Below, piece by piece: positions 17,621 through 62,148 of a stretch of 64,000 bases of DNA (position 1 is the stretch's first letter; every line of letters starts with the position of its first letter). The translations under genes and the position numbers were made by a program. The stretch covers positions 1 to 64,000 of the forward strand of contig JAKIVC010000003.1 of assembly GCA_021647245.1 (NCBI GenBank), given 5' to 3'. The notes beneath the pieces are model-generated. The model was not told the DNA's origin and did not search any database. It saw nothing but the letters and a program-made list of their open reading frames with translations. The DNA comes from Gammaproteobacteria bacterium. Lineage in GTDB: Bacteria; Pseudomonadota; Gammaproteobacteria; RBG-16-57-12.

Positions 17621-17635
17621 CTTATGCTTCCTTAT

Positions 17636-18874
17636 TTAGTTAACAAGCCAAGCCAAACCAACACCCAGCAATACGAACAGTGTGATCGCACTACGCCAAT
17701 GACAACGCAACCGTGTTGAATCCTGTCGTTCCAGCCAATCTTGTAGCTGTTTCACCCTTTTTAACCCCGCCTGATGCCAATGGCAATACCAAGCAGGCAG
17801 CTTACGAAATAAAGCACCGCAACCCACCCATACACGTTCAACCAAAGGGGCTGAACGATACGGCGGCAACACCACAGCCCCCCGTGAGCAGATAAAACCC
17901 GCCACCGATAAACTGATGCCGATTAGCGCAATCAGTGGATAGACAAGTGTGCCATACGGCTGCCACCATAACGGCTCAAGCAGAACCAGCCCAACGAACG
18001 CGGTGACCACGCCACTGGCAAGCAAACTCGCTCTGGCAAGGGGCATACCCTGTACAGAGCGCTGAAAAAACCACCACCCTGCATACAGTATAGAGGCTCC
18101 ACCAGCGACCATAAGCAACCACCCCAGTCGTCCATCGTGCAGATAGCCCAATGGCAACCAACGTATCAAGGTGAACAGCGCCATAACAACAGGCAACACC
18201 AGTAGCAGAGCAGAAAAAGGGCTGGCTGACCGATAACTGGCGCAGAGCCAGAAATGGGCAGGCCAGAGCCCCGCTTTTAAAATAACCGCGCCAAACACCA
18301 TCAACAGGTAAGGTGTACTGAAATCCGTCAAAGAAGATAAAGAGAGCTGTTGATGGTTAAAGGCAGACAATAGCAGTGCCTCAAAAAGCAGCAGATCAGC
18401 GATGATCAGGCAGATCAAATAGTAGCGAGCCGCCTGCTGAACCGCTCTACTCTGCCCGCAAACTAATAACCCATAAAACCCATAGCCCATTAGTGTTGAA
18501 AAACTAAAAAAACCCACCTTATCACTGGCCAATACCACCCCTAAGCTGCCTGCCAAAGTGATTAGATAGAGGGTATTTTGCCAATGGGCTACCGTGTACT
18601 GTGGATCACGCCGCTGCGTCGCAGCCAATACCCAGATGAAAACCACCGCAGCCACTACCCAACGGCGCTCACCGTCAACACTCACTCCCACACCCAGTAA
18701 TAACCAGGAGAGCGTCGAGCTCAAGTCTACAGGCAGCCATACCAGCAACAGCGCAGGTAAAATAGCAAGGTAATCAGGCGTGGGAAGAGAGCGGCGTACC
18801 GCCGGTATCGCCAACAAGAGTGGCCAGCCCACAACAACCCACAACACAACACCATAGGGGTCACTGTTGATCAT
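17636..18874 (-). CDS. Divergent proton-translocating antiporter-like membrane subunit (NuoL/M/N-like)
   Basis: The protein has about 412 residues and 10-12 membrane segments. It is diverged from the NuoL/M/N-MnhA/D family: GAVILKAGLWPAHFWLCASYRSAS aligns with the LKA.LFPLHFWLP.A. block of the MnhD genes beside it, and retains the lysine (VILKAGLWP) although much of the rest is degenerate. The start at 18874 overlaps the stop of the upstream gene (ATGA). A cytoplasmic, basic segment near 360-390 (HQAGLKRVKQLQDWLERQD) precedes a last helix. The role is inferred from context: third channel-type subunit of the Mrp-like complex. I do not know a named orthologue. Confidence 0.7.
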   Translation of the reverse strand: MINSDPYGVVLWVVVGWPLLLAIPAVRRSLPTPDYLAILPALLLVWLPVDLSSTLSWLLLGVGVSVDGERRWVVAAVVFIWVLAATQRRDPQYTVAHWQNTLYLITLAGSLGVVLASDKVGFFSFSTLMGYGFYGLLVCGQSRAVQQAARYYLICLIIADLLLFEALLLSAFNHQQLSLSSLTDFSTPYLLMVFGAVILKAGLWPAHFWLCASYRSASPFSALLLVLPVVMALFTLIRWLPLGYLHDGRLGWLLMVAGGASILYAGWWFFQRSVQGMPLARASLLASGVVTAFVGLVLLEPLWWQPYGTLVYPLIALIGISLSVAGFICSRGAVVLPPYRSAPLVERVWVGCGALFRKLPAWYCHWHQAGLKRVKQLQDWLERQDSTRLRCHWRSAITLFVLLGVGLAWLVN

Positions 18875-20367
18875 GGGACAAACTCCCGCTGCACTACAAA
18901 CTGAACCCACGCCAAAGGGCTGAAGGGAGCCAGCGCCAGCAGACCAACAGCCAGTGCCAGCAGCGCCGTCACCACGGGTGGTAACAACAGTGCCCAGGCG
19001 GTCTCTTTATCTCCGAACTTACGCTCTTCTGGCCATGAGTCTGGGGGTTCGCGGAACCAGGCCGCATGTAAAATGGGCAAAAAATAGGCCGCATTCATTA
19101 GCGTACTGGCGGCTAATATTAAAATCAGCCACCCCTGATTCATCTCCAATGCGCCCATACCCAGATACCACTTACTGATAAAACCGGCCACGGGTGGTGC
19201 ACCGATCATACCGAAAGCACCGACAGTAAATGCGGCCATGGTCCACGGCATACGCCGCCCCACACCGTTCATCTCACTCACCTTGTGAATACCCAGGGTT
19301 TCGGCCAGATTACCGGCACAGAAAAACAGCGTAATTTTCATCAACCCCTGATGTACTAGATGCACCATACCACCCACTGCGGCAATGGGTCCTGCAATCG
19401 CCACACCCAACGTGATATAGGCCACTTGACTGACCGTGGAAAACGCCAGCCGACGCTTTAGATCATCCTGAAACAGTGCCCGTAGTGAGCCGTAGAGAAT
19501 GGTGATCGCAGCCAATATTACCAGTGGCCCGGTCACCCCCAGCAGCGTCGCAAAGTCGACACCAAAGACATCATAAACCACACGAATAATGCCAAACGCA
19601 CCGGCCTTCACCACCGCCACCGCGTGCAACAGTGCACTCACCGGTGCAGGTGCCACCATCGCCTCGGGTAACCAGCCGTGTAACGGCACCAGTGCCGCTT
19701 TGACACCCAAACCGGCAATCAACAACACAAAAATCATAATGAGTGCCGGATGATGTTGCTCATCCATATCGTCCAGAAAGCCCTGTGGGGTAAACTCCAG
19801 CGTGCCACTCAAGGTATAGAGCCAGACAATAGCGACCAACAGCAGCGCACCTCCTGCCATGGTATAGCGCAGATAAATCTTGCCTGCACGCCGTGACGCT
19901 TCTGTACCACGGTGCATAATCAAAGGGTAAGTTGCCAGAGTCAGAAGCTCATAAAAAAGCAGAAAAGTGATCAAGTTACCTGCCAGGGCCAGCCCGACCG
20001 TGGCGGTCACACAGAGACTGAAGAAACCAAAAAAACGGCTTCGATTGGGTGAGCCTTCCAGATAGCCAATGGCATATACCGTAGTCACCAGCCATAATAG
20101 CGAAGAGAGCGTAACAAACAGCAGTGACAACGCATCAGCACGCAACACCAACTCCAGCTGCGGTAACAGCGCCCACCTCACTTCATAGTGTTGACCGTGA
20201 TAAACCCCCCATAACATCGCCGCGACCAGTGCCATTTTCAACAGTGCGCCGCACAAGTTAAGTGCGGTTCGCAACTTCACCTGCCGTTCAGCCAGCCCAA
20301 AGATAATCACCCCCGGTATCAGTGAGCTGGCAATCACCAGTAGTGGCAACCATACACTCCAGTTCAT
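18871..20367 (-). CDS. mnhD: Mrp-type antiporter subunit D-like (second copy)
   Basis: The protein has 498 residues and about 14 membrane segments, of the NuoM/MnhD family. Diagnostic blocks are FYELLTLATYPLIMH (the glutamate in helix 5), LGVKAALVPLHGWLPEAMVAPAPVSALLHAVAVVKAG split across helices 7-8 with conserved lysines, and STVSQVAYI. It begins 4 bases inside the preceding mnhD copy, so the two are coupled. By family knowledge it carries part of a proton path in a multi-subunit Na+/H+ antiporter. Confidence 0.87.
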   Translation of the reverse strand: MNWSVWLPLLVIASSLIPGVIIFGLAERQVKLRTALNLCGALLKMALVAAMLWGVYHGQHYEVRWALLPQLELVLRADALSLLFVTLSSLLWLVTTVYAIGYLEGSPNRSRFFGFFSLCVTATVGLALAGNLITFLLFYELLTLATYPLIMHRGTEASRRAGKIYLRYTMAGGALLLVAIVWLYTLSGTLEFTPQGFLDDMDEQHHPALIMIFVLLIAGLGVKAALVPLHGWLPEAMVAPAPVSALLHAVAVVKAGAFGIIRVVYDVFGVDFATLLGVTGPLVILAAITILYGSLRALFQDDLKRRLAFSTVSQVAYITLGVAIAGPIAAVGGMVHLVHQGLMKITLFFCAGNLAETLGIHKVSEMNGVGRRMPWTMAAFTVGAFGMIGAPPVAGFISKWYLGMGALEMNQGWLILILAASTLMNAAYFLPILHAAWFREPPDSWPEERKFGDKETAWALLLPPVVTALLALAVGLLALAPFSPLAWVQFVVQREFVP

Positions 20368-21812
20368 CTCTCCACCCCGCCAAAAGGATTACCAATATCC
20401 AGCAGTGCAAACACCCAAGGGGCTGTGAGGCCCAACAAAATTGAAGAGAGGGCCAACAGCAGTGCGGCCCACTCCATGCTCGCAGGGATCGATTTCGGCT
20501 CATGTGTCGCGGTCGAGCGGGTAAATGCGTAACCCACCACCTTAAAGATGTAAGCAGATGCCAGTAGCCCGCCAACCACCATAACGGCTCCCAGCAGCCA
20601 ATACCCCTGCTCTATTGCAGCCTCCAGCAACAACCACTTGCCAATAAAACCACCACTGGGTGGTAACCCCATAATGCTCACTCCGGCCAAGGCAAAAGCG
20701 GCGGTACTGATGGGCAAACGCTGCACCGCTCTATCCAGCTCTGCAATTCGATCATGGCCACCAAACAGCAGTAGATTACCCGCTGCCAGAAACATCGCCG
20801 CCTTGGCCAGGGCATGGGAGAGCATCAGATAAGAGACCCCATTCCATAACATCGTTCCGGCGGCGGCTGCCAATGGAAATGCCACGAAAAGATAGCCGAT
20901 CTGCGCCACCGTCGAGTAGGCTACCAGTAGTTTAAGGCGTGTTTGGCGTAGCGCCCGCCAGGAACCCCAGAGTATCGCCAGTGCCCCAAGCAGCCCCAAC
21001 AGCAGCGCCACATCACCACCCAGCGGGGAAAATAGCTCCCGCCACAAACGTAAAAAAATATAGAACGAAGCCTTTACCAGCAGTGCTGAGAGCAGTGCAC
21101 TGATCGGTGCTGGCGCACTGGCATGGGCGGGGGGCAACCAAAAATGCAATGGAAACAGTGCTGTCTTCAGCAGCAGCCCAGCCCCCATCAAACCCAGCGC
21201 CGCCCAAACCACTGGGCTGCTATCAATGCGTTCAGCCAACAGTGCAATATCCACGGTGCCATAACTGTGATAGAGCAGTGCCACACCGAGCAGATAGGTC
21301 AATGAACCCAACAGTGTGGCCAACAGGTAACGCATCGCGCCATTCAGTGCATCGCGCCCACCTTTCAAAGCAACCAACGCAACAGCGGCCAGGCCCACCA
21401 TCTCCAGGGTGATATAGAGGTTAAAAATATCAGCGGATAAAAATAGCGCATTCAATGCTGCCAACAGCAGGAGCCAGAGCGGCCAAAACACTCGCGCCTG
21501 TTTTTGGCTGAAGTAGCTCCGTGCATAGAGAGTAACCGCCAGCCCCACCAGCGCGGTCATTACCAGCATCAACAGGCTCAGGCCGTCACCATAAAGGTCA
21601 ATGCCTAGTGGTGCTCCCCACCCACCTACTGCATGCTGGTAAACACCTTGGCAATATAGCTGCCAACCAAAAGCGCCCACGACCAGCGTGACCAGTATCA
21701 CCGCTACCACTCCCGTAAGAGCGGCCAGTCGGGGCAAAACAAAACAGAATATGGCGGCGGCTAATGGCAGTAGAATCAACAGGGCACCCCAGGGGATTTC
21801 ACTGCTCAGCAC
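20364..21812 (-). CDS. mnhD: Mrp-type antiporter subunit D-like (first copy)
   Basis: The protein has 482 residues and about 14 membrane segments. The NuoM/MnhD motifs include YITLEMVGLAAVALVAL, LLKTALFPLHFWLPPAHASA and STVAQIGYLF. It is closer to classical MnhD than the following copy. It starts 5 bases after mnhC and overlaps the next gene by 4 bases. In Mrp systems MnhD works with MnhA; no large MnhA gene occurs here, so the second mnhD-like gene probably replaces it. Confidence 0.88.
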   Translation of the reverse strand: MLSSEIPWGALLILLPLAAAIFCFVLPRLAALTGVVAVILVTLVVGAFGWQLYCQGVYQHAVGGWGAPLGIDLYGDGLSLLMLVMTALVGLAVTLYARSYFSQKQARVFWPLWLLLLAALNALFLSADIFNLYITLEMVGLAAVALVALKGGRDALNGAMRYLLATLLGSLTYLLGVALLYHSYGTVDIALLAERIDSSPVVWAALGLMGAGLLLKTALFPLHFWLPPAHASAPAPISALLSALLVKASFYIFLRLWRELFSPLGGDVALLLGLLGALAILWGSWRALRQTRLKLLVAYSTVAQIGYLFVAFPLAAAAGTMLWNGVSYLMLSHALAKAAMFLAAGNLLLFGGHDRIAELDRAVQRLPISTAAFALAGVSIMGLPPSGGFIGKWLLLEAAIEQGYWLLGAVMVVGGLLASAYIFKVVGYAFTRSTATHEPKSIPASMEWAALLLALSSILLGLTAPWVFALLDIGNPFGGVER

Positions 21813-29508: not shown

Positions 29509-29657
29509 TGTTTACTGAAAAATCACTTAAAATCCAGAAGGCATAAAATAATAGGTGATATCTTTTGTTGAGCTGCCGCTACACTACAGATGATTATTTC
29601 ATTAACCCGTTCGAGGATCGCTCATTCTCGGTTGCAACGATAATAAAGGAATTAACG

Positions 29658-30953
29658 ATGAAAAAACTCGCCTTCGCCATGGCACTTATCATTCCATTTG
29701 CAGCACATGCACAACCGCTGTTTCACCCATCAGGCAGCAACTTAACCAACGGTATGAGCAGCAATAGCCCCTCCGTCATCAGCATCACCAACAACCCTGC
29801 TGCCGCCGCAGCCACCCTCACCAGAGAAGAGAACAGCACCACTACTGCAATCGGTGTAATCAGCTCGATTGGTATCTCCACCGAACTGGGCCAAGTGGAT
29901 AATTTCTCACAGCAGATTGATGACCTGAGCACACAACTTGATCGAACCAACCTCACACTCGCTGAAGGCCAGCAGATCGAAAGCGATTTTAACGACTTCC
30001 TGCTTCTGGCAGAAAGAGACGGGTATTTGATCATTAATGCCGCTGCCCACGTTCCGGCCATGCCTTTCATGATTAACAGTGAAACATTGGGAGGAGCGAT
30101 CACTCTCGATATTAACGCAGCTGTGCAAGCCTATTTAGGTGTTCTTTCAGCACCACTCTCATATAACGCAATAACGCAGGAGATGACGACTGACTCCGCA
30201 TTCTATATAAAGGGCGCTACCGTTTTAGAGGCCAGCGTTGGCTATAGCCGAAAGGTATGGAATAATCAGCACGGTAATCTATTTGCTGGCGTTACCGGAA
30301 AATATTATCAGGTTGGGCTCAGTAAAAATGTCATTCCACTGATGGATGATGCAAACAACGATGTTGGCGATACGCTTGCAGATGAGTTTGAGCAAAACCA
30401 GAATACCTCCACAGGCATCGGCATCGATCTGGGGGTGTTGTGGGTCGCCAACAACTATAGCCTCGGCGCAACCCTCGCCAACGCCAATTCACCCCGCTTT
30501 GATTATGGCGAAATCGGTAACGACTGCAACCTATTAACCGGTAGCGCACAGAGTAACTGCCTTGCCGCAGCCACCCACAGTAACAAAATAGACCTCACCG
30601 AAACCTACACTATGGATGCCCAACTGCGTATTGAAGGCTCACTCCACTCTCAAAACAAACATTGGCAACTCAGTGCCTCATATGATGGTAATGCCGTATA
30701 CGGCCCGGTGGGTAATGAGATGCAGTGGGCCACCCTGGCGGTTGGCTACGCCCCTGACAACTGGATTCCAGGTGTTCGTGTAGGTTATCGTAAAAATATG
30801 GCTGGCAGCGAGCTGAGCATGGCAACCTTTGGCCTCACGTTAATAAAAGGGCTTAATCTCGATGTCGGCTATGGTCTGGAAGAGGTTGAAGAGGATGGCG
30901 AAAAATACCCGCGCACCTTGGCAGTAAACCTTGGACTCGAGATGCGCTTCTGA
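29658..30953 (+). CDS. Predicted outer-membrane beta-barrel, TraF_2-like family
   Basis: The protein has 431 residues from the ATG at 29658, which follows AAGGA and opens a signal peptide (MKKLAFAMALIIPFAAHA). The frame is open upstream to 29565 but lacks a signal there. The mature start (GSNLTNGMSSNSPSVISITNNPAAAAATL) and the barrel-like strands ending EKYPRTLAVNLGLEMRF suggest the FadL-like TraF_2 family, often annotated 'conjugal transfer TraF'. Residues 90-130 form a helical, coiled-coil-like insert (FSQQIDDLSTQLDRTNLTL). A C-x-x-x-x-x-x-x-x-x-C pair lies in DCNLLTGSAQSNC. No conjugation genes are nearby, so a transfer role is unlikely. Confidence 0.65.
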   Translation: MKKLAFAMALIIPFAAHAQPLFHPSGSNLTNGMSSNSPSVISITNNPAAAAATLTREENSTTTAIGVISSIGISTELGQVDNFSQQIDDLSTQLDRTNLTLAEGQQIESDFNDFLLLAERDGYLIINAAAHVPAMPFMINSETLGGAITLDINAAVQAYLGVLSAPLSYNAITQEMTTDSAFYIKGATVLEASVGYSRKVWNNQHGNLFAGVTGKYYQVGLSKNVIPLMDDANNDVGDTLADEFEQNQNTSTGIGIDLGVLWVANNYSLGATLANANSPRFDYGEIGNDCNLLTGSAQSNCLAAATHSNKIDLTETYTMDAQLRIEGSLHSQNKHWQLSASYDGNAVYGPVGNEMQWATLAVGYAPDNWIPGVRVGYRKNMAGSELSMATFGLTLIKGLNLDVGYGLEEVEEDGEKYPRTLAVNLGLEMRF

Positions 30954-38504: not shown

Positions 38505-40241
38505 CTATTTTTTTTTCGGTGCATAGAGGTCAGTACAGCTCCCCTCGGCCATTTCAGCGGCAAAGTTAATAGTTTCAGAAAGGGTGGGATGTGGATGTAT
38601 TGTCAGGGCAATATCTTCCACATCCGCTCCCATCTCCAGTGCCAATACTGCCTCTGCAATTAACTCACCGGCGTTGGTACCAACAATCGCCGCGCCGATG
38701 ATTTTATGATTTTCATCGAACAGCAGCTTGGTTAACCCCTCATCACGACCAATGGAGAGCGAGCGACCCGAGGCGGCCCAAGGAAAGGCGCCTTTGGTAT
38801 ATTGAATACCCTCTTTTTTACACTCCTCTTCGGTTTTACCCATCCACGCCACTTCGGGGTCCGTGTAGGCAACCGATGGGATAGTGCGCGCATCGAAGAA
38901 TGACTTTTCACCGGCAATGTTTTGTGCCGCCACTTTGCCTTCATGGGTCGCCTTGTGAGCCAGCATCGGTTGGCCCACCACATCGCCAATGGCGAAGATA
39001 TGATCCACATTGGTGCGCTGCTGCTTATCAACCTCGATAAAGCCCCACTCATTGACTGCAACACCGGCTTTTTCTGCGTCAATCAGCTTGCCATTAGGGG
39101 TGCGGCCTATGGAGACCAGTACCCGGTCAAAAGTATCGGTTGCGGGAGCATCCTTACCTTCGAAGGTACAGAGCAGCCCGGCATCCGTTGACTCAATGGC
39201 TGAAACCTTTGTGTTGGTGTAGATGTTTTCATAGCGCTTTTTAATACGTCGTTCCAGTGGCCGCACGATGTCGCGGTCAACACCCGGAATCAGGCCGGCG
39301 GAGAGTTCAACCACGGTGACATTTGCACCCAGTGCGTCATAGACCGTCGCCATCTCCAGGCCGATAATGCCGCCACCCACCACCAGTAGTCGCTTGGGAA
39401 TCTCTTTAATCTCCAGTGCATCGGTTGAGTCCATGACACGGGGATCATCCCACGGAATAAAGGGCAATTTGGTAACGCGGGAGCCTGCTGCAATAATACA
39501 GCTCTGGAAACCAATGGTTTGTTTGCTACCATCAGCGGCCTCTACCTCAAGGGTATGTGCTGAGGTGAATTTTCCATAGCCGTGGACTATTTTCACCTTA
39601 CGCTGTTTGGCGAGACCTTTTAAGCCACCGGTCAGTTTACCGACAATCGAGTTTTTATAATCGCGCAGCTGTTCCAGATCCACCTCGGGCTTGTTGAATT
39701 TAACCCCAATGTGTTCAAACTCTTCTGCTTCATTGATCACCTGTGCGGTATGCAACAGTGCCTTGGAGGGGATACAGCCCACATTCAGACAGACACCGCC
39801 AATGCTCTCATAACGCTCAATCAGCACCACCTGCTTACCCAGATCAGCCGCCCGAAACGCCGCCGTATAACCACCTGGCCCAGACCCCAACACCACCACT
39901 TCGGTGCTGATGTCCACATCACCTGCAAAATTAACGGCGGCGGGAGCTGGCGTGTGCACGGTTTGCACCCCTTCTGTCTTTGCTACTGTGGAAGCAACCC
40001 CACCGACTTCCAGTAGGAGCACTGCACTTCCTTTGGAGACGTTGTCACCGACCTTCAGCAGAATTTCTCTAACCACACCTCCTTGTGGAGCGGGGATCTC
40101 CATCGAGGCTTTATCCGACTCAACTGTGATCAGTGACTGCTCTTCTGCAATGGAGTCACCCACACTCACCAAAATTTCAATCACTTCAACCGTGTCGAAG
40201 TCACCAATATCGGGGACATTTATCTCAATTAGATTGCTCAT
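38505..40241 (-). CDS. lpdA: Dihydrolipoamide dehydrogenase with N-terminal lipoyl domain (E3)
   Basis: The protein has 578 residues from the ATG at 40241 (after AGAGGAAATCC). Residues 1-80 are a lipoyl domain with the modified lysine in ESDKASME; it is close in sequence to the lipoyl domain of the neighbouring aceF. After a linker, FAD-binding (VVLGSGPGGYTAAFRAADLG) and the redox disulfide (GGVCLNVGCIPSKALLH) follow, with the His-Glu site in IHPHPTLSE. It reoxidises dihydrolipoyl groups with NAD+. It is the last gene of aceE-aceF-lpdA. Confidence 0.96.
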   Translation of the reverse strand: MSNLIEINVPDIGDFDTVEVIEILVSVGDSIAEEQSLITVESDKASMEIPAPQGGVVREILLKVGDNVSKGSAVLLLEVGGVASTVAKTEGVQTVHTPAPAAVNFAGDVDISTEVVVLGSGPGGYTAAFRAADLGKQVVLIERYESIGGVCLNVGCIPSKALLHTAQVINEAEEFEHIGVKFNKPEVDLEQLRDYKNSIVGKLTGGLKGLAKQRKVKIVHGYGKFTSAHTLEVEAADGSKQTIGFQSCIIAAGSRVTKLPFIPWDDPRVMDSTDALEIKEIPKRLLVVGGGIIGLEMATVYDALGANVTVVELSAGLIPGVDRDIVRPLERRIKKRYENIYTNTKVSAIESTDAGLLCTFEGKDAPATDTFDRVLVSIGRTPNGKLIDAEKAGVAVNEWGFIEVDKQQRTNVDHIFAIGDVVGQPMLAHKATHEGKVAAQNIAGEKSFFDARTIPSVAYTDPEVAWMGKTEEECKKEGIQYTKGAFPWAASGRSLSIGRDEGLTKLLFDENHKIIGAAIVGTNAGELIAEAVLALEMGADVEDIALTIHPHPTLSETINFAAEMAEGSCTDLYAPKKK

Positions 40242-40254
40242 GGATTTCCTCTCA

Positions 40255-41529
40255 TCACAACAACAGGCGGCGTGTATCGGATAATACACGACTAAGGAAG
40301 GTGGTAAAACGAGCGCCATCCGCGCCATCAATGACACGGTGGTCATATGAGAGTGACAGTGGCAACATCAAGCGCGGCTCAAACTCTTTACCATTCCAGA
40401 CTGGCTGCATCTTCGAACGAGAGACACCTAAGATGGCCACCTCAGGTGCATTGACGATGGGTGTGAACTGGGTGCCACCGATACCACCGAGACTAGAGAT
40501 AGTAATTGAACCACCTTGCATATCAGAGGGCTTGAGTTTTTTATCACGCGCCTTGACGCTGATCTCACCCAACTCTACCGCCAGTTCGACAATGCTTTTA
40601 TGATCCACATCGCGCACCACCGGCACCACCAAGCCATCGGGCGTATCAATGGCGATACCGACATTGAAGTAGCTCTTCATAATCAAGTTTTCACCACTGG
40701 AGTCCAGTGATGAGTTAAAACGCGGGTATTGTTTCATGGCCGAGACCAGCGCTTTCATCAGGAAAACCAAGGGTGTAATACGAATCCCTTTCTCTTTATA
40801 GTCTGCTGCCAGCTCCTTACGAAACGCCTCCATATCAGTCACATCAGCCTCATCGAACTGAGTCACATGGGGAATGGTGACCCAGTTACGATGTAGAAAT
40901 TGACCCGTCAATTTGTTGATTTTAGAGAGTGGCTGAGACTCAACCTCACCCCATTGGCTGAAGTCGATCTCCGGCATCGGCGCAACGCCTAAGCCACCGC
41001 CGGCAGGCTGGCTCATAGCATGTTTCACAAAGCCCTGCACATCCTGTTTGAGGATACGTCCTTTGCGCCCCGTGCCATCTACTCGGCCCAAGTCTACCCC
41101 TAACTCACGGGCAAATTTTCGTACCGAGGGCGAGGCATAAGCTTTCGAGAAGCTCACCTCATCAATTTTTGCGGTGGGCGATTGACGAGCAGGTCTGGGT
41201 GCTACTTTGGCTGTTGGCAGCGCTACGCTCGACTCCGTTGTTTTTGCAGCCGGTGTCACCTCAGCTTCAGTGGCTTTGGCGGATGCCGATTCGGTACTGG
41301 GCTCTAAAACAATCAGCGGACTACCTTCCGCAATACGATCACCCAAGGCAACCTTGATCTCTTTGATTACACCCGCTTCGGGGCAAGGGATCTCCATCGA
41401 GGCTTTATCTGACTCTACTGAAATCAACGAATCATCAGCGGCGACGGTGTCGCCCACTGAGACCAAAATCTCAATAACTTCAACATCTGCGAAGTCACCA
41501 ATATCAGGAACAAGTATCTCTTTACTCAT
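40255..41529 (-). CDS. aceF: Dihydrolipoyl acetyltransferase (E2 of pyruvate dehydrogenase)
   Basis: The protein has 424 residues. A single lipoyl domain (1-75, lysine in ESDKASMEIP) is followed by an Ala/Pro/Thr linker, a peripheral subunit-binding domain (SPSVRKFARELGVDLGRVDG, about 130-150) and the catalytic domain ending LPLSLSYDHRVIDGADGARF with the active-site His and Asp. Enteric AceF has three lipoyl domains; one is present here. It lies 18 bases after aceE and 13 before lpdA. Confidence 0.96.
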   Translation of the reverse strand: MSKEILVPDIGDFADVEVIEILVSVGDTVAADDSLISVESDKASMEIPCPEAGVIKEIKVALGDRIAEGSPLIVLEPSTESASAKATEAEVTPAAKTTESSVALPTAKVAPRPARQSPTAKIDEVSFSKAYASPSVRKFARELGVDLGRVDGTGRKGRILKQDVQGFVKHAMSQPAGGGLGVAPMPEIDFSQWGEVESQPLSKINKLTGQFLHRNWVTIPHVTQFDEADVTDMEAFRKELAADYKEKGIRITPLVFLMKALVSAMKQYPRFNSSLDSSGENLIMKSYFNVGIAIDTPDGLVVPVVRDVDHKSIVELAVELGEISVKARDKKLKPSDMQGGSITISSLGGIGGTQFTPIVNAPEVAILGVSRSKMQPVWNGKEFEPRLMLPLSLSYDHRVIDGADGARFTTFLSRVLSDTRRLLL

Positions 41530-41547: not shown

Positions 41548-44211
41548 CTAGTTATACAGAGGGTTTGGTTTTTCTGAATCAAGTCCGTACTTGGCAATCG
41601 CCTCTTCTACCTTTTTGGCCGGAAGTTTCCCTTCATCTGCCAACGCCTTCAGTGCCGCAAGGACTACGCTGAAACTGTCCACTTCAAAGTGACGGCGCAA
41701 ATTGGCGCGAATATCCGAGCGGCCAAAGCCATCGGTACCCAGCACCACATATTGTCCTGGCACCCATTTACGAATCTGATCCGCATAGTTACGAATATAG
41801 TCCGTTGCCGCAATGAAGGGGCCTTCACGATCTTGTAGCATCTGGGCAACATAGGGCAGACGCTGCTCTTTGGCAGGATTCAAGCGGTTCCAACGCTCAC
41901 AATCTTCACCTTGGCGACTCAGTTCATTAAAGCTGGTAGCACTCAAAATATCAGACTCGATACCCCAGTCATCTTTAAGCATCTCCGATGCCTTAATCAC
42001 TTCACGGAAGATGGTGCCGGAGCCCATCAACTGAACCTTAAGCTTCTTCTTGCCACCTTTGCGGAACTCATACATGCCTTTGATGATGCCCTCTTCAACG
42101 CCTTCCGGCATCGCTGGCATGGTGTAGTTTTCATTCATGGTGGTGACATAGTAGAAAACATTCTCCTGCTCGCCATACATGCGACGCAAACCATCATGGA
42201 TAATGACCGCCAACTCATAACCAAAGGTGGGGTCATAGCTGACGCAATTAGGAATAGTGCCCGCCTGAACCAGCCCGTGGCCATCCTGATGCTGTAGCCC
42301 CTCACCCGACAAGGTAGTACGGCCCGCCGTGGCTCCAATCAGAAAGCCTCGTGCCTGCATATCACCCGCTGCCCACGCCAAGTCGCCAATGCGTTGGAAA
42401 CCAAACATCGAGTAGTAGATGTAGAATGGCACCATGTTGACGTTATGGTTGGCATAGGAGGTGGCTGCGGCAATCCAGGACGACATGGCACCCGCTTCAT
42501 TAATACCCTCTTCCAGAATCTGGCCCGATTTGTCCTCTTTATAGAACATGATCTCATCTTTATCCTGTGGGGTATAAAGCTGCCCCACCGAAGAGTAGAT
42601 ACCCAGCTGGCGGAACATCCCCTCCATACCGAAGGTGCGCGCCTCATCGGGAACAATCGGCACCACATATCTGCCCATCTTTTTGTCACGGCACAACAGC
42701 GTCAACAGACGCACGTAGACCATAGTGGTGGACATCTCTTTTTCGCCTGACCCTTTCAAAAGAGCGGCGAAAGTCTCCAGCGGGGGCACCTCAAGCGGTG
42801 CAGCATTTTGATTGCGCTGTGGCAGGTAGCCACCCAGCTCTTTGCGACGGGCGTGCATATACTGCATTTCAGGACTTTTCGCATCAGGCACATAATACTT
42901 ACCCGCCGCCGCATCCTCATCATTCAGCGGGATATTAAAGCGATCACGCACATAGATCATCTCATCGCCCGCCAGCTTTTTCTGTGAGTGGGTACGGTTT
43001 TGTGCTTCACCCGCCGAACCCATACCATACCCTTTAACGGTGTGGGCCAACACAACCGTCGGCTGACCTTCGGTATTCATAGCATTATGATAGGCCGCAT
43101 ATACTTTATGAGGATCGTGGCCACCACGATTCAAGCGCCAAATATCATCATCCGACATTTTGGAAACCATCTCCAGCAGCTCTGGATATTTACCAAAAAA
43201 GTGCTCTCGAACATAAGCGCCATCCTTCGCCTTGTAGTTCTGTAAATCACCATCCACGCATTCCATCATGCGCTTTTGCAGCAATCCGCTGGTATCTTTC
43301 GCCAGCAGTGGGTCCCAATAGGAGCCCCACAAAACCTTAACCACATTCCAGCCCGCACCCCGGAACATCGCCTCCAGCTCTTGAACAATTTTACCGTTAC
43401 CACGCACCGGCCCATCGAGCCGTTGCAGGTTACAGTTGATCACCCAGGCCAGGTTATCCAAATTTTCCCGCGAAGCCAGCGAGATAGCACCTAGTGATTC
43501 AGGCTCATCACACTCGCCATCACCCAAAAAAGCCCAGACTTTACGCTGCTGAGTATTGGCAATGCCTCGATCCTGAAGGTACTTCATAAACCGCGCCTGG
43601 TAGATCGACATAATCGGCCCCAGCCCCATGGAGACGGTCGGGAATTGCCAGAAGTCCGGCATCAAATACGGGTGTGGATATGAGGGCAGACCTTTACCAT
43701 CCACCTCTTGGCGGAAATGGTCCATCTGCTCTTCTGTCAAACGCCCCTCCAGAAAGGCGCGGGCATAGGTCCCCGGTGATGCGTGCCCTTGTGAGTAGAT
43801 CAGATCACCACCGTGCTCATGACTGGGTGCGCGCCAAAAGTGGTTGAAACCGACATCATACAAAACCGCTGAAGAGGCAAAAGAGGCGATGTGCCCGCCC
43901 AGTTCGGAAGCCTTGCGGTTCGCTTTGACCACCATGGCAATCGCATTCCAGCGAATAAAGGAGCGGATTCGATCCTCAATCGCCTGATCACCCGGAATAG
44001 GCGCCTCCATATGGGTTGGAATGGTATTCACGTAAGCGGTATTCGCAGAGTAGGGTAAATTAGCACCCGAGCGACGCGCCTTATCAATCATCTGTTCCAG
44101 CAGGAAATGGGCACGTTCGACCCCTTCGGTCTCAATAACCGCTTCCAGGGCTTCCAGCCACTCCTGGGTTTCAACTGCATCGATATCGGGTATCTGTGAT
44201 TGCTGAGACAT
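41548..44211 (-). CDS. aceE: Pyruvate dehydrogenase E1 component (homodimeric)
   Basis: The protein has 887 residues from the ATG at 44211. The thiamine diphosphate motif runs from FLGDGECDEPESLGAI to the NLQRLDGPV region. It decarboxylates pyruvate and acetylates the E2 lipoyl groups. The frame is open three codons further (TTG), but AGAGG nine bases upstream of the ATG favours 44211. It is the first gene of aceEF-lpdA. Confidence 0.96.
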   Translation of the reverse strand: MSQQSQIPDIDAVETQEWLEALEAVIETEGVERAHFLLEQMIDKARRSGANLPYSANTAYVNTIPTHMEAPIPGDQAIEDRIRSFIRWNAIAMVVKANRKASELGGHIASFASSAVLYDVGFNHFWRAPSHEHGGDLIYSQGHASPGTYARAFLEGRLTEEQMDHFRQEVDGKGLPSYPHPYLMPDFWQFPTVSMGLGPIMSIYQARFMKYLQDRGIANTQQRKVWAFLGDGECDEPESLGAISLASRENLDNLAWVINCNLQRLDGPVRGNGKIVQELEAMFRGAGWNVVKVLWGSYWDPLLAKDTSGLLQKRMMECVDGDLQNYKAKDGAYVREHFFGKYPELLEMVSKMSDDDIWRLNRGGHDPHKVYAAYHNAMNTEGQPTVVLAHTVKGYGMGSAGEAQNRTHSQKKLAGDEMIYVRDRFNIPLNDEDAAAGKYYVPDAKSPEMQYMHARRKELGGYLPQRNQNAAPLEVPPLETFAALLKGSGEKEMSTTMVYVRLLTLLCRDKKMGRYVVPIVPDEARTFGMEGMFRQLGIYSSVGQLYTPQDKDEIMFYKEDKSGQILEEGINEAGAMSSWIAAATSYANHNVNMVPFYIYYSMFGFQRIGDLAWAAGDMQARGFLIGATAGRTTLSGEGLQHQDGHGLVQAGTIPNCVSYDPTFGYELAVIIHDGLRRMYGEQENVFYYVTTMNENYTMPAMPEGVEEGIIKGMYEFRKGGKKKLKVQLMGSGTIFREVIKASEMLKDDWGIESDILSATSFNELSRQGEDCERWNRLNPAKEQRLPYVAQMLQDREGPFIAATDYIRNYADQIRKWVPGQYVVLGTDGFGRSDIRANLRRHFEVDSFSVVLAALKALADEGKLPAKKVEEAIAKYGLDSEKPNPLYN

Positions 44212-44564
44212 ATGCTCCAACCTCTCATTATTGATTCAAACCGCCTCCCTTACTTGGGGACAACGGTGGCATAGCGGGCTAACACCACGCATATTTATAT
44301 GGGGTGTGAAAATGCGCTATGATCAGGGTTTTCCGTCATAAGGTCAAGCACAGCGCACTGTTCACAACAAAATATGAATATCATATATCTTTAATTTACA
44401 GGGTGTTACAAAACTATCCTATTACTTAATGATACCACTATTTAGTAAGCCATCCTGTAAAACACGGGGTAAAATTGCTAAAGGATCTCACTACTCAGCC
44501 GATTCATCACCCAGACTAAAAGCCTCTATTTACGGGGTAATGACATAGAAACAACACCAACAGG
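44212..44564. other. Divergent intergenic region, aceE / HDOD-GGDEF operon
   Basis: These 353 bases lie between aceE (-) and the signalling operon (+). No gene-like frame is seen. The part near 44360-44440 is AT-rich. A spaced inverted repeat TGCGCT...AGCGCA lies around 44311-44360 and might be a regulator site for either operon; I see no match to a known operator such as PdhR. Promoters must lie here but none stands out clearly. Confidence 0.5.
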
Positions 44565-57487: not shown

Positions 57488-57739
57488 TCAGCTCACATTT
57501 TTTGCTAATGTTGCCCACTCTTCGGGGGTGTAGGCTTTGATTGTCACCGCATGAATCTCGCCACTGGCAATCTGCTCTGACAGCGTGGCATAGACCAACT
57601 TTTGCTCCTGCACCCTACTCAGGCCTTCAAACTGCTTGCTGATAATCGTTACCGCAAAATTACAGCCTTCGCCACTCACCAGCACCTCTGATTCTGGAAA
57701 TGCCGTTAATAATTGAACCTGAACCTGTTCATTTTGCAT
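57488..57739 (-). CDS. ibaG: BolA-family protein IbaG
   Basis: The protein has 83 residues of the BolA fold. It lies directly upstream of murA as in many gammaproteobacteria, which favours IbaG over BolA. The C-x-F/V strand region (GEGCNFAVTIISKQFEG) and the helix QEQKLVYATL are present. It is thought to work with monothiol glutaredoxin in iron-sulfur handling. Confidence 0.9.
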   Translation of the reverse strand: MQNEQVQVQLLTAFPESEVLVSGEGCNFAVTIISKQFEGLSRVQEQKLVYATLSEQIASGEIHAVTIKAYTPEEWATLAKNVS

Positions 57740-57806: not shown

Positions 57807-58127
57807 TTAGGGTGATTGACTGCTATTCAGCAACGGGAGTCGCTGGGCAAGTCCGCTGACATCGATAATGGTCCACATCTGAGCCGGAATATTACTGAAA
57901 GAGAGCTTGAGATTTCGCAATTTTGCCATCTGCATCCACTCAAGGAGTAGAGCAACACCCGCACTGTCGGAGTGTGTGACCGCAGCGAGATCAATCGACA
58001 ACTCTTCCTGCGGTTTAAAATATGCCACACTCTCGGCCAGTAGTGATGTGACAGAGGAGAAGACCAGATCGCCCTTCACCTCCATTTTACCCGCCCCTTG
58101 TGACTCGATCGTTGCCAACGCAGCCAT
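57807..58127 (-). CDS. mlaB: STAS-domain protein MlaB
   Basis: The protein has 106 residues, a single STAS domain with the DSAGVALLLEWM loop. MlaB binds the MlaF ATPase and is needed for the activity of the phospholipid ABC transporter. It overlaps the mlaC stop by one base. Confidence 0.88.
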   Translation of the reverse strand: MAALATIESQGAGKMEVKGDLVFSSVTSLLAESVAYFKPQEELSIDLAAVTHSDSAGVALLLEWMQMAKLRNLKLSFSNIPAQMWTIIDVSGLAQRLPLLNSSQSP

Positions 58128-58729
58128 TAAGGGGAGCTGCTACGTGATGAGAGTTTAGCGAGCAGACCATCAATGCCATTTTTACGAATTTCACTCGAGA
58201 AGCTGGTACGGTAATTAGTCACCAGACTAATGCCGTCAATATTGACATCGTACACCTTCCAGCCATCATCATTCAGGTGCATTTTATAGTTAATCGGGAT
58301 CGGGAACCCGCCATCCTGAGGGATCTCTGTGCTCACCGTCACATCAACGGCATCCGCCTTGGCACGCAAAGGCAAAAAGTCTACAGGCTGATCCACATTT
58401 TCCAGCAACGCTTTAGCATAGGTGCGTACCAATAGCTGGCGAAACTCATAAACAAACTGCTGTCGCTGAGCCTGATCTGCCTTGCGCCAATATTTTCCGA
58501 GCACCCACTTCGACATTTTTTCAAAATCAAAGTGCGGAAGCACAACCTCGTCAACTAATCTAAAGAGCCGCTCGGGGTCATTTTGAATCTGCTGCCGGTC
58601 GGCCTTGATCTTCTGAATAATAATTTCTGTGGTCTGCTTCACTAGTGCATCCGGTGCAACATTGGCTACCGCCAAAGCCGGAAAGGATAAAGCCATTAAC
58701 AACACACCCATCATCCCATTTCGCAACAT
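58127..58729 (-). CDS. mlaC: Periplasmic phospholipid-binding protein MlaC
   Basis: The protein has 200 residues with a signal peptide (MLRNGMMGVLLMALSFPALAVA). The MlaC/Ttg2D pattern includes LVDEVVLPHFDFEKMSKWVLGKYWRKAD and GWKVYDVNIDGISLVTNYRTSF. It ferries phospholipid between the membranes. The start directly follows the TolC-family stop with no gap. Confidence 0.93.
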   Translation of the reverse strand: MLRNGMMGVLLMALSFPALAVANVAPDALVKQTTEIIIQKIKADRQQIQNDPERLFRLVDEVVLPHFDFEKMSKWVLGKYWRKADQAQRQQFVYEFRQLLVRTYAKALLENVDQPVDFLPLRAKADAVDVTVSTEIPQDGGFPIPINYKMHLNDDGWKVYDVNIDGISLVTNYRTSFSSEIRKNGIDGLLAKLSSRSSSP

Positions 58730-60091
58730 TTAACTCTCCCCACTCACAACAGATAGTGTTTTAACCTGCATATTATATTCGTACACTGCCTGCAAATATT
58801 GACTGTACGCCAACACATAAGCTTGTAGAGCTGTGACCGCCTTATCGGCTGTTTCCAGGCCCGCTTCAAAATCAGCATAACTGGCAATCATCCAGCGCCG
58901 AGACTCCCGGGCTGCCATCTCCAGTGATGCCACCATCTCTGAATAGCCTTGAACCTGGTAGTAACTCTCTGCCACTTGAAATGGAATACCTTGGCGTGCA
59001 AACGCTGCAATCGAGAGTGTTGCATCCAGTTCGGCTTGTGCCTGTGCAACTCTCGCCGGTTGAGCACCATAAGAGAACGACCACTGCAGACCCAACACCG
59101 GTGTGGCCGCCTCATAGTTAAAGGGATCATAAACATGTGGGTTATCCAGCTGATCCCGCCCGGGCGAGAAGGCCGCACCGGCAATAATTCCAGCATAGAT
59201 ATTGGGTTTCCCCTCCGACCGCTTTGCTTCAATCAATGCTTTTCGTGCCAACAAACCCGCCTCGACCTGCTTCATTTCAGGGCGATGTTCAAGGGCTTGT
59301 TGTTGCAGCTCAGGCAGCAGGAGTGCAGGCTTGGGCAGTGGCCGAATGCGCCGTTCAATTAATTCAAACGACTCAGCTACAGGCCACTGCGTGAGTGTTC
59401 TTAAGCCCGTCATTGCGACCTTCTCCAAGGCATTTGCTTTGGCAAAATAGCCTTTGGCTAGCGCGTGGCCCGCCTTAAGGGCATAAAGGTCTGACTGTTT
59501 CGCATCGCCGCTCCCCTCTTCAAGCCAACCTTCAACCAACTCTGTTGCACTCTGTAGACGATTGCTCACATCCCGCATCAGCTTGCGCGTATCACGCGCC
59601 GCAAGATAACCGTAATACGCCTTACTCACATCCAGTGTTGTTTTACCACGTTGAACAGCAACATCTCCCTGTTTGAGGGCAATATTGCCGGTAGCCGCCT
59701 TTTCATAGTTCTCAATTTTCCCAAATGTATAGAGTGGTTTAATCAGGCTAAGCTGCAGATTAAACCAGGGGGTTACCTCATCAAAATCACGATTATCATC
59801 TCTTGGTACGCAGCTTCCGGTACAACTTTCGCCATTCTCACCGTAAAACCCACCCTCTATTCTCGGCGTAAGCCCTACAAAAGTATTCAGGCTGATGAGG
59901 AGATCATCGCTACCACTCACCTCATCCTTGCGCGCACGCGCTGCCACTACATAGTGTTCGCGCTCTATGATTCTTTGATCCACATCAAGTGCCCGCTCAA
60001 GCACCTGATCAAAATCAAGTGGCTCGGCAACCGTCGTCATACTGGCAAACAGTAGCCACAGAGCACTCAATAAAACAGCTATCCGTTTCAT
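58730..60091 (-). CDS. TolC-family outer-membrane efflux protein encoded inside the mla operon
   Basis: The protein has 453 residues with a signal peptide (MKRIAVLLSALWLLFASMTTVAEP). It has the two-fold outer-membrane efflux protein pattern: long helices with QRGKTTLDVSKAYYGYLAARD and the matching RQGIPFQVAESYYQVQGYSE in the second half. An insert with CTGSC near 88-92 may form a small disulfide loop. Its ATG overlaps the mlaD stop by 4 bases, and its stop abuts the mlaC start, so it is fully integrated in the operon. Standard mla operons (mlaFEDCB) have no such gene; a role as outer-membrane partner is inference. Confidence 0.9.
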   Translation of the reverse strand: MKRIAVLLSALWLLFASMTTVAEPLDFDQVLERALDVDQRIIEREHYVVAARARKDEVSGSDDLLISLNTFVGLTPRIEGGFYGENGESCTGSCVPRDDNRDFDEVTPWFNLQLSLIKPLYTFGKIENYEKAATGNIALKQGDVAVQRGKTTLDVSKAYYGYLAARDTRKLMRDVSNRLQSATELVEGWLEEGSGDAKQSDLYALKAGHALAKGYFAKANALEKVAMTGLRTLTQWPVAESFELIERRIRPLPKPALLLPELQQQALEHRPEMKQVEAGLLARKALIEAKRSEGKPNIYAGIIAGAAFSPGRDQLDNPHVYDPFNYEAATPVLGLQWSFSYGAQPARVAQAQAELDATLSIAAFARQGIPFQVAESYYQVQGYSEMVASLEMAARESRRWMIASYADFEAGLETADKAVTALQAYVLAYSQYLQAVYEYNMQVKTLSVVSGES

Positions 60092-60546
60092 TCATCCGCC
60101 TTGCTAAATAAAAACTGCCCAATAAGCTGCTCCAATATAACGGCCGACTGAACCAGTTTAATCGTGTCACCATCTTTTAAAACTTCATCGCTGCCACCCG
60201 GCTCCAAGCTGACATACTGTTCACCCAGCAGGCCTGAGGTGAAGATGCTGGCAGAGGTATCTTCAGGAAAAGCATCATATTGATTATCAATCAACAGCAC
60301 CACCCGTGCCTCGAAATTTTCCATATCATAGCTGATCGCTTCGACACGCCCCACTTTAACCCCGGAAACAGAAACGGGTGAGCGAACCTTCAAGCCACCA
60401 ACATTCTCAAAGCTGGCCTCAACAGTATAGCCACTATCAACCGAAAACTTGTTCAAGCTACTGACTTGCATTGAGAGAAAAAAGAGCGCAGCTATCGCCA
60501 CCACCATGAATAGCCCAACCCAGATTTCTACTGATTTTTTATGCAT
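60088..60546 (-). CDS. mlaD: MCE-domain protein MlaD
   Basis: The protein has 152 residues. One N-terminal membrane anchor (VGLFMVVAIAALFFLSM) precedes an MCE domain (YTVEASFENVGGLKVRSPVSVSGVKVGRVEAI). MlaD forms the hexameric ring of the phospholipid ABC transporter. It lies 5 bases after mlaE and overlaps the TolC-family gene. Confidence 0.94.
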   Translation of the reverse strand: MHKKSVEIWVGLFMVVAIAALFFLSMQVSSLNKFSVDSGYTVEASFENVGGLKVRSPVSVSGVKVGRVEAISYDMENFEARVVLLIDNQYDAFPEDTSASIFTSGLLGEQYVSLEPGGSDEVLKDGDTIKLVQSAVILEQLIGQFLFSKADE

Positions 60547-60551
60547 CTCAA

Positions 60552-61331
60552 TTACTCTCCAAACATCAGTGCGGTCAGCATAAAGTCGAGCGCCAGAACC
60601 GCCAGCGCCGAATGCACCACAGTGCGTGTTGTTGCACGACTCACCCCTTCAGAGGTCGGGATGGCATCGTATCCTTCGTAAACGGCAATCCAGCTCACCA
60701 CCACACCAAAAACAATACTTTTAATCACACCGTTTAAAATATCTTCTGTCAGATCAACTTTCGATTGCATCTGGGACCAAAAAGCCCCTGCATCAATACC
60801 CAGCAAACCGACCCCAACGATGTAGCCACCCACAACGCCTATGGCGCTAAAAATAGCTGCCAGCAGTGGCATCGAAATCACACCGGCCCAAAAGCGGGGT
60901 GCCACAATACGTTTAATGGGATCAACCGCCATCATCTCCATGCCAGAGAGTTGTTCGGTCGCCTTCATCAAGCCTATTTCAGCGGTTAATGCGGAGCCCG
61001 CCCGCCCCGCAAAGAGAAGCGCGGTCACCACGGGGCCCAGCTCTCTTACCAAAGAGAGCGCCACCATCACCCCAAGCGACTCCTCAGCACCAAAGTCGAT
61101 CAAGGTATAGTAGCCCTGCAACCCCAACACCATACCAACAAACAGCCCTGAGACAAATATTATCAGAAAGGACAACACACCAATCGAGTAGAGCTGCTGA
61201 ACCAGCAGAGGAGCGCGCGTGACGACATTTGGCAGCGCCGCTATCAACTGCACAAAGAACAGAAACCCTCGCCCCAAGCGCTCCAGCACTGAGATGGTCG
61301 AGCGACCTAGCTGTTGTACCTTACTTAGCAT
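60552..61331 (-). CDS. mlaE: Phospholipid ABC transporter permease MlaE
   Basis: The protein has 259 residues and about five membrane segments. The MlaE (DUF140) signature [23 protein letters not shown] is intact. It pairs with MlaF and MlaD in the inner membrane. The start overlaps mlaF by 11 bases. Confidence 0.95.
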
Positions 61332-62148
61332 CCGCAGGCCCCTCTAACAGGTCATCTAGGTAGTCACCCGCCTCGAAGTGAAATGGCACCGGGCCATCGG
61401 GTTCGCCCCTCAAGAACTGCTTCACCCAGGGTGAGGCTGAATTATTCAGCTGCTCAGGTGTGCCGTGCTCAACCACCTTGCCGTTTGAAATAAGATAGAC
61501 ATGATCGGCAATCGCGGTCGCCTCAGCCACATCGTGGCTCACCACAATACTCGATAGCCCTAATGCACTGTTAAGCTTGCGAATCAACGACACCAGCACG
61601 CCCATTGAGATAGGATCCTGCCCGGTGAAAGGTTCATCATACATAATCATCATCGGGTCAAGGGCAATCGCCCTGGCCATGGCAACACGCCTGGCCATTC
61701 CTCCTGAAAGCTCACTGGGCATCAGCTCTCTTGCGCCACGAAGCCCAACCGCTTCCAGCTTCATCAAGACTAGGTTACGGATCATTGAGGGGGAGAGCTT
61801 GGTATGTTCACGCAATGGAAAGGCAACATTATCGTATACGGTCATATCCGTCAGCAGCGCGCCACTTTGAAACAACATACCCATGCGTTTCCGCAACTGG
61901 TAGAGCGCACGGCGTGATAATGTTGTGACCTCTTCGCCATCGACACGAATTGAGCCAGAGTCCGGGCGCAGCTGGCCACCAATCAAGCGCAGCAGTGTGG
62001 TTTTACCCGTGCCACTCGGCCCCATTATGGTCGTCACCTCGCCTCGGGCAATATCCATGTCAATATCGTCAAAAATCACCCTCTCTCCGCGAGAGAAGGT
62101 CAAGCCTCGAATCTCGATCAGCGGTGCAGTTGAATTTTGTTTACTCAT
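61321..62148 (-). CDS. mlaF: Phospholipid ABC transporter ATPase MlaF
   Basis: The protein has 275 residues. Walker A is GPSGTGKTT, the ABC signature [14 protein letters not shown], Walker [14 protein letters not shown], and the H-loop VVSHDVAEA. It powers the Mla transporter. It is the first gene of the mla-ibaG-murA-his series; a gap of 193 bases separates it from lnt. Confidence 0.95.

Follow-up and report, generated by a model that had tools for sequence, protein, structure and literature searches.

The outer-membrane partner of the standard Mla system is the lipoprotein MlaA, and both the outer-membrane end of this machine and its direction of transport have been disputed for years. The E. 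coli system (MlaFEDB, MlaC and MlaA with OmpC/F) resembles the locus analysed here in the gene order mlaD, mlaC, mlaB, ibaG, murA, in its short MlaD, and in that MlaE and MlaD score above the NCBIfam cut-offs. Our locus differs from it in two respects: no MlaA was found in its genome, and a TolC-family gene is placed between mlaD and mlaC. The Mla operons of Neisseria, Burkholderia and Ralstonia are continuous and contain MlaA (PMC11131202); they share with our locus an outer-membrane partner encoded in the operon itself, this being MlaA there and, as we read it, a TolC-family protein here.

The nearest precedent is the mlaEFD-tolC-tamB operon found in Veillonella parvula and further Negativicutes (PMC10665443), where the mla MCE gene is immediately followed by a tolC homologue and MlaA is absent. 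That system has no MlaC, a long MlaD with a helical region and a C-terminal beta-barrel, and tamB downstream, whereas the MlaD of our locus has 152 aa and is followed further downstream by mlaC, mlaB and bolA. Brucella Mpc, a Mla-Pqi hybrid, is likewise an MCE-containing ABC system that works without MlaA, but PMC12436622 describes it with a PqiC-like lipoprotein and an MpcD needle structure, and with no MlaC detected. In the literature searched, which included few subscription papers and bioRxiv preprints, we found no description of a proteobacterial mla operon that contains a TolC gene. Our data point to a Mla system with its own TolC-type channel and without MlaA, which would add a hitherto undescribed form to the well-studied machinery of membrane maintenance. 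From gene order, protein families, predicted fold, the absence of MlaA, a widely kept gene slot and a separate TolC clade, we consider it probable that a dedicated TolC-family protein serves here as the outer-membrane component instead of MlaA. Such a natural Mla system, with all other Mla parts retained, would help to separate the needs of the machine from the habit of E. coli, and lipid homeostasis would become one of the roles of TolC-type channels.

The mla-tolC locus and its genome

The window, i.e. the whole stretch of 64,000 nucleotides that was analysed, belongs to a genome of 2.57 Mb in 64 contigs with 99.46% completeness (G000), and carries the operon mlaF-mlaE-mlaD-tolC-mlaC-mlaB on its minus strand, like every feature for which coordinates are given in this section. 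The Mla transporter ABC ATPase gene mlaF (61321..62148, 275 aa; PF00005, E 6e-31) has NF008809 as its top NCBIfam match, with 418 bits just below the cut-off of 441, and overlaps by 11 bases with the permease gene mlaE (60552..61331, 259 aa; PF02405, E 8e-77; NF033619 above cut-off). The next gene, mlaD (60088..60546, 152 aa), encodes a protein of the short form with a single MCE domain at residues 39-117 (PF02470, E 1e-21; TIGR04430 OM_asym_MlaD above cut-off). Its stop codon TGA and the start ATG of tolC share the four bases ATGA (60088..60091). The tolC gene (58730..60091, 453 aa) encodes an outer-membrane protein matching PF02321 with E 5e-28 and 98.5 bits against a cut-off of 22; by eye, its N terminus is signal-peptide-like and without a lipobox cysteine. 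Read from the DNA, the ATG of mlaC (58127..58729; periplasmic lipid shuttle, 200 aa; PF05494, E 3e-58) directly follows the TAA stop of tolC. The mlaB-like gene (57807..58127, 106 aa) overlaps mlaC by one base and encodes a STAS protein (PF13466, E 3e-12; NF033618 mlaB_1 with 30 bits, cut-off 90). It is followed by a gene for a BolA/IbaG-like protein (57488..57739, 83 aa; PF01722, E 3e-15) and by a gene that was named murA-like from its position and translation, so that the order mlaB, ibaG-like, murA-like is that of E. coli mlaB-ibaG-murA.

MlaF, MlaE, MlaD, MlaC and MlaB are all encoded together, as expected of a Mla system; MlaC, MlaB and MlaF fall below the NCBIfam cut-offs and were placed by order and Pfam. 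A simple consensus scan gave no promoter-like site on the minus strand between mlaD and mlaC, and the window had no matches to Rfam or in a tRNA scan. The preliminary description of this DNA had placed a TolC-family gene within the mla operon, overlapping mlaD by four bases and abutting mlaC; both junctions are confirmed on the minus strand from the DNA, and the assignment agrees with the Pfam families and with a full TolC-type fold in the AlphaFold2 model.

The same description had noted that MlaA is not in the window. This holds in a PF04333 search of the window, and the search of the whole genome for mlaA was likewise negative, with E. coli and Caulobacter as positive controls. That a divergent MlaA was missed was considered: the TolC-type genomes that we count as MlaA-less contain nothing at E <= 0.001, while even the weakest of the best matches in the 179 MlaA-containing genomes of the class sample reached E 8.5e-49 (G009), so that a borderline miss is unlikely. 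That a second MCE system performs this function was rejected for the window's genome, as the MlaD of the window is its only MCE match. More than one MCE match was found in 14 of 30 TolC-type genomes, one of these cases (G092) being two domains in a single ORF.

Distribution of the TolC slot and of MlaA

Within the order, TolC was found in 4/4 genomes, each time in the same slot, and MlaA in 0/4; conservation of the slot at this level exceeds chance. The presence of mlaA and the absence of TolC from close relatives had been among the grounds named beforehand against a special role for the gene; MlaA was not found, and TolC occurs in all four genomes of the order. The TolC of a Chromatiales MAG is 93% identical to that of the window, and the class was on this ground taken as Gammaproteobacteria. 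In a class sample of 229 genomes, searched with a TolC profile at a threshold of 1e-12, 30 genomes matched, of which 29 were strong (>=378 bits, spanning 21 family codes) and one was weak (G194, 51 bits) and was left out thereafter. A phylum sample of 299 genomes added three strong matches in other classes, all with the order mlaE-mlaD-tolC-mlaC and with MlaA in 0/3. Two of the three belong to the class of G274, where mla-TolC is rare (strong matches in only 2/78 genomes). Two weak matches (L058 and L059) have no mla neighbours.

MlaA was found in 179 and MlaC in 210 of the 229 class genomes. MlaA is missing from 25/29 TolC-type genomes and present in 175/200 of the others. Among the 210 genomes with MlaC, TolC occurs in 25/34 without MlaA against 4/176 with MlaA (Fisher p 6e-21, kinship not corrected). 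MlaC itself is present in 29/29 TolC-type genomes. The replacement is not strict, because four of the 29 genomes (G085, G103, G130 and G199) hold both MlaA and mla-TolC. Some Mla operons have neither: mla-TolC is lacking in 9/34 genomes with MlaC and without MlaA, which means that MlaA can be missing without mla-TolC. Five of these nine were read. Three (L050, L053 and L054) have an ordinary mla operon without TolC, and in L051 and L052 mlaC lies apart from an mlaFED of this kind. For L050 and L053 (genomes G019 and G094) it may be recorded separately that neither a tolC in the operon nor MlaA in the genome was found.

Counting genomes with this gene order had been proposed in the preliminary description, and in the 30 loci that were read (those of the 29 strong class genomes and of G003, with starts chosen by script nearest to that of the window) tolC adjoins mlaD, mlaC or both in every case. 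It directly follows mlaD in 29/30, the junction being overlapping or abutting in 19/29 and within 47 bases in the remainder. It directly precedes mlaC in 29/30, overlapping or abutting in 22/29 and within 170 bases in the remainder; the exception is G089, where a contig end intervenes. In the exception on the mlaD side, G199, two genes lie between mlaD and tolC; by eye these are a NAD-binding dehydrogenase-like gene and a divergent LysR-type regulator (L049, 7497-9647). G199, with this insertion, also has MlaA.

For comparison, one locus was taken from each of 40 genomes among the 176 that have MlaC and MlaA; these 40 were picked for having one MlaC match with a listed position. The mla-TolC gene was found in 0/40 of the loci, and MlaA itself occupies the slot between mlaD and mlaC in 3/40. 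In G085 two distant mla operons occur, one with tolC and the other with mlaA in the same slot (L022 and L045), and this pair of operons makes a natural test case.

Fold, constraint and descent of mla-TolC

The AlphaFold2 monomer of mla-TolC (mean pLDDT 88.4, pTM 0.77) has four strands and two long helices, one of 68 residues (125-192) and one of 67 (343-409). Foldseek and VIA-align group it with TolC, OprN, CusC and OprM; TolC, OprN and CusC are matched over 385-411 residues with Z 28-30, the identity to solved relatives being 13-18%. The protein is therefore, by its OEP domain (PF02321) and its modelled TolC fold, a member of the family, and this fold is what it has in common with the outer-membrane factors of tripartite pumps. 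It differs from these in forming a clade of its own, in its tip, in a conserved extracellular loop and in having no adjoining fusion protein.

TolC proteins elsewhere work with several pumps, and mla-TolC might accordingly be an ordinary outer-membrane factor serving efflux pumps in trans, merely sharing the operon, with the loss of MlaA a coincidence. The fold, being that of the efflux factors, is as this explanation predicts, but several observations make us regard it as unlikely. The host genome has five outer-membrane factors, namely mla-TolC, a housekeeping TolC and three RND-associated ones, and each of the latter three is encoded beside a fusion protein and an RND pump of its own. The housekeeping TolC scores 358 bits to TIGR01844, the TolC subfamily model, and mla-TolC scores 42.6 bits, below the cut-off of 225. 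By Pfam there is no fusion-protein gene in the mla-tolC operon, and mla-TolC thus lacks the accompanying genes for a membrane fusion protein and an inner-membrane pump that the factors of the host's three RND operons have. A separate housekeeping TolC is present in 29/30 TolC-type genomes, and the slot is kept across 21 families and in other classes.

The distribution of constraint within the protein also argues against an ordinary factor. In pumps the periplasmic tips of TolC are the docking sites. In the 28 housekeeping TolC rows from the same genomes, with region borders set by eye, constraint is strongest at these tips (entropy z -1.0) and weakest in the extracellular loops (+0.9 to +1.2). 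In mla-TolC the values are -0.02 for predicted tip 1 (codons 189-203; 59483..59527, minus strand), -0.47 for predicted tip 2 (codons 402-418; 58838..58888, minus strand), which has a DFEAG core, and +0.52 for extracellular loop 1. For predicted extracellular loop 2 (codons 309-325; 59117..59167, minus strand) the value is -0.32, the ordinary TolC from these genomes having +0.86, and this modelled loop appears unusually conserved for an outer-membrane factor. The shift of constraint from the periplasmic tips, i.e. the docking sites for fusion proteins, to the outer-membrane end amounts to a difference of differences of 0.79 bits (95% bootstrap 0.53-1.01). Tip 1 is acidic in the window and unlike the tip of housekeeping TolC; its mean charge over the 29 mla-TolC is -2.1, with a range of -7 to +3.

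In a quick tree of the 29 aligned mla-TolC and the three from other classes, with long branches among the RND factors, mla-TolC forms one clade (SH-aLRT 99) apart from the 28 housekeeping rows. On the operon tree, made from the joined MlaE, MlaD and MlaC of 72 rows, the TolC state has to change eight times (bootstrap 8-9), with at least three changes forced by supported branches. Taken together, the sequences suggest one old origin of the tolC gene followed by several losses or whole-operon transfers, with MlaA mostly found where TolC is absent.

The single clade would also be expected if the TolC-bearing operon had arisen in an ancestor without MlaA and had remained as frozen history, the anticorrelation then reflecting descent and not functional substitution. 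Shared descent is indeed strong in all distance matrices, and the Fisher test ignores kinship. Against this stand the eight changes of TolC state, at least three of them forced, and the finding that the absence of MlaA accompanies TolC in a mean of 2.8 of 3 supported independent pairs on the quick tree, where n=3 cannot reach significance. We regard frozen history as a very unlikely explanation.

Correlation of distances (mirror-tree) gave no operon-specific coevolution, since for both MlaD and MlaC the correlation with the housekeeping TolC was equal or stronger. Single residues of MlaC differ between the two types of genome. At the position of E. coli Ile130, 23/29 TolC-type proteins have Asp or Glu and 19/40 MlaA-type proteins have Arg; at that of Pro144, 22/29 TolC-type proteins have Phe, which in the MlaA type is outside the four commonest residues. 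Both positions are near the cleft of MlaC that binds MlaA and MlaD, as mapped in PMC10245069. These differences are suggestive only, being confounded by kinship and by the cleft being shared between the two partners.

Possible routes of lipid through the envelope

In the arrangement that we favour, with TolC in place of MlaA, a TolC trimer would sit in the outer membrane and extend its alpha-helical barrel into the periplasm, a picture built on the model of the monomer. There it could be the station at which MlaC is loaded or unloaded with phospholipid, and lipid would be swapped between MlaC and the MlaD ring of MlaFEDB; the shuttle principle of Mla would thus be retained. The likeliest net task would be that of Mla, in which misplaced phospholipid is taken out of the outer leaflet. 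If a TolC-type barrel takes up lipid, the conserved extracellular loop 2 and the equatorial belt would be the first candidate sites. Because MlaC is present in 29/29 TolC-type genomes and MlaD is short, we presume that the shuttle has been retained and consider a closed tube less likely.

Such a tube would be a transenvelope conduit in which the MlaD hexamer docks on the tip of the TolC trimer, directly or via MlaC, and lipid passes through it inward or outward. The 6:3 symmetry required is seen in efflux pumps. The adjacency of tolC, mlaD and mlaC would fit such a conduit, as would the modelled helices of 68 and 67 residues, which correspond to a full-length periplasmic barrel, and a tip 1 unlike the pump-docking tip of housekeeping TolC. 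An MlaD with two MCE domains in G092 is in line with it, and in Veillonella the mlaEFD genes are linked with tolC in a system thought to bridge the envelope (PMC10665443). The length of MlaD, however, is 150-165 aa in 28/28 aligned TolC-type rows, which leaves no space for a helical extension, and MlaC is found in every TolC-type genome, although a closed tube would not require it. A conduit of this kind therefore seems quite unlikely. The G092 protein, which comes in addition to the 28 rows, is encoded by an MlaD ORF of 277 aa in a TolC-type operon (L032, 2859-3689, minus strand), and its two MCE domains could form two stacked rings.

The preliminary description had suggested a different outer-membrane route or, alternatively, export of lipids, by analogy to MCE systems that span the envelope. 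The first part is well in line with our data, in that the genome has no MlaA, 25/29 TolC-type genomes lack it, a single MCE system is present and the TolC clade is a dedicated one. Export as the likely direction is not supported by anything found here; MlaF, MlaE, MlaD, MlaC and MlaB are all of Mla type, and none of them reports direction. The analogy to envelope-spanning MCE proteins does not hold for the window, as its MlaD is itself too short with 152 aa, and this length rules out a long envelope-spanning MlaD as in Veillonella.

One could speculate further that Mla-type transporters originally had TolC as their outer-membrane partner, that MlaA displaced it repeatedly in Proteobacteria, and that mlaFED-tolC-mlaCB operons are surviving intermediates with both an MlaC shuttle and a TolC-type conduit. 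The idea is suggested by the mlaEFD-tolC operon of Negativicutes, and we hold it to be rather improbable. If it were true, TolC-family proteins would be lipid transporters as well as efflux ducts. Our locus may also connect two known types, the proteobacterial shuttle of MlaA and MlaC and the Negativicutes operon that bears tolC and has no MlaA.

Elsewhere in the window, the ORF at 38505-40346 (minus strand) belongs to a pyruvate dehydrogenase cluster together with those at 40255-41529 and 41548-44220, and encodes a dihydrolipoyl dehydrogenase to whose N terminus a lipoyl domain is fused. Three further ORFs (14882-21812, minus strand) adjoin a cation P-type ATPase; two encode antiporter subunits of the Mrp/complex-I type, to which the third is weakly related. 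A TraF_2-family protein (PF13729) is encoded at 29565-30953 on the plus strand.
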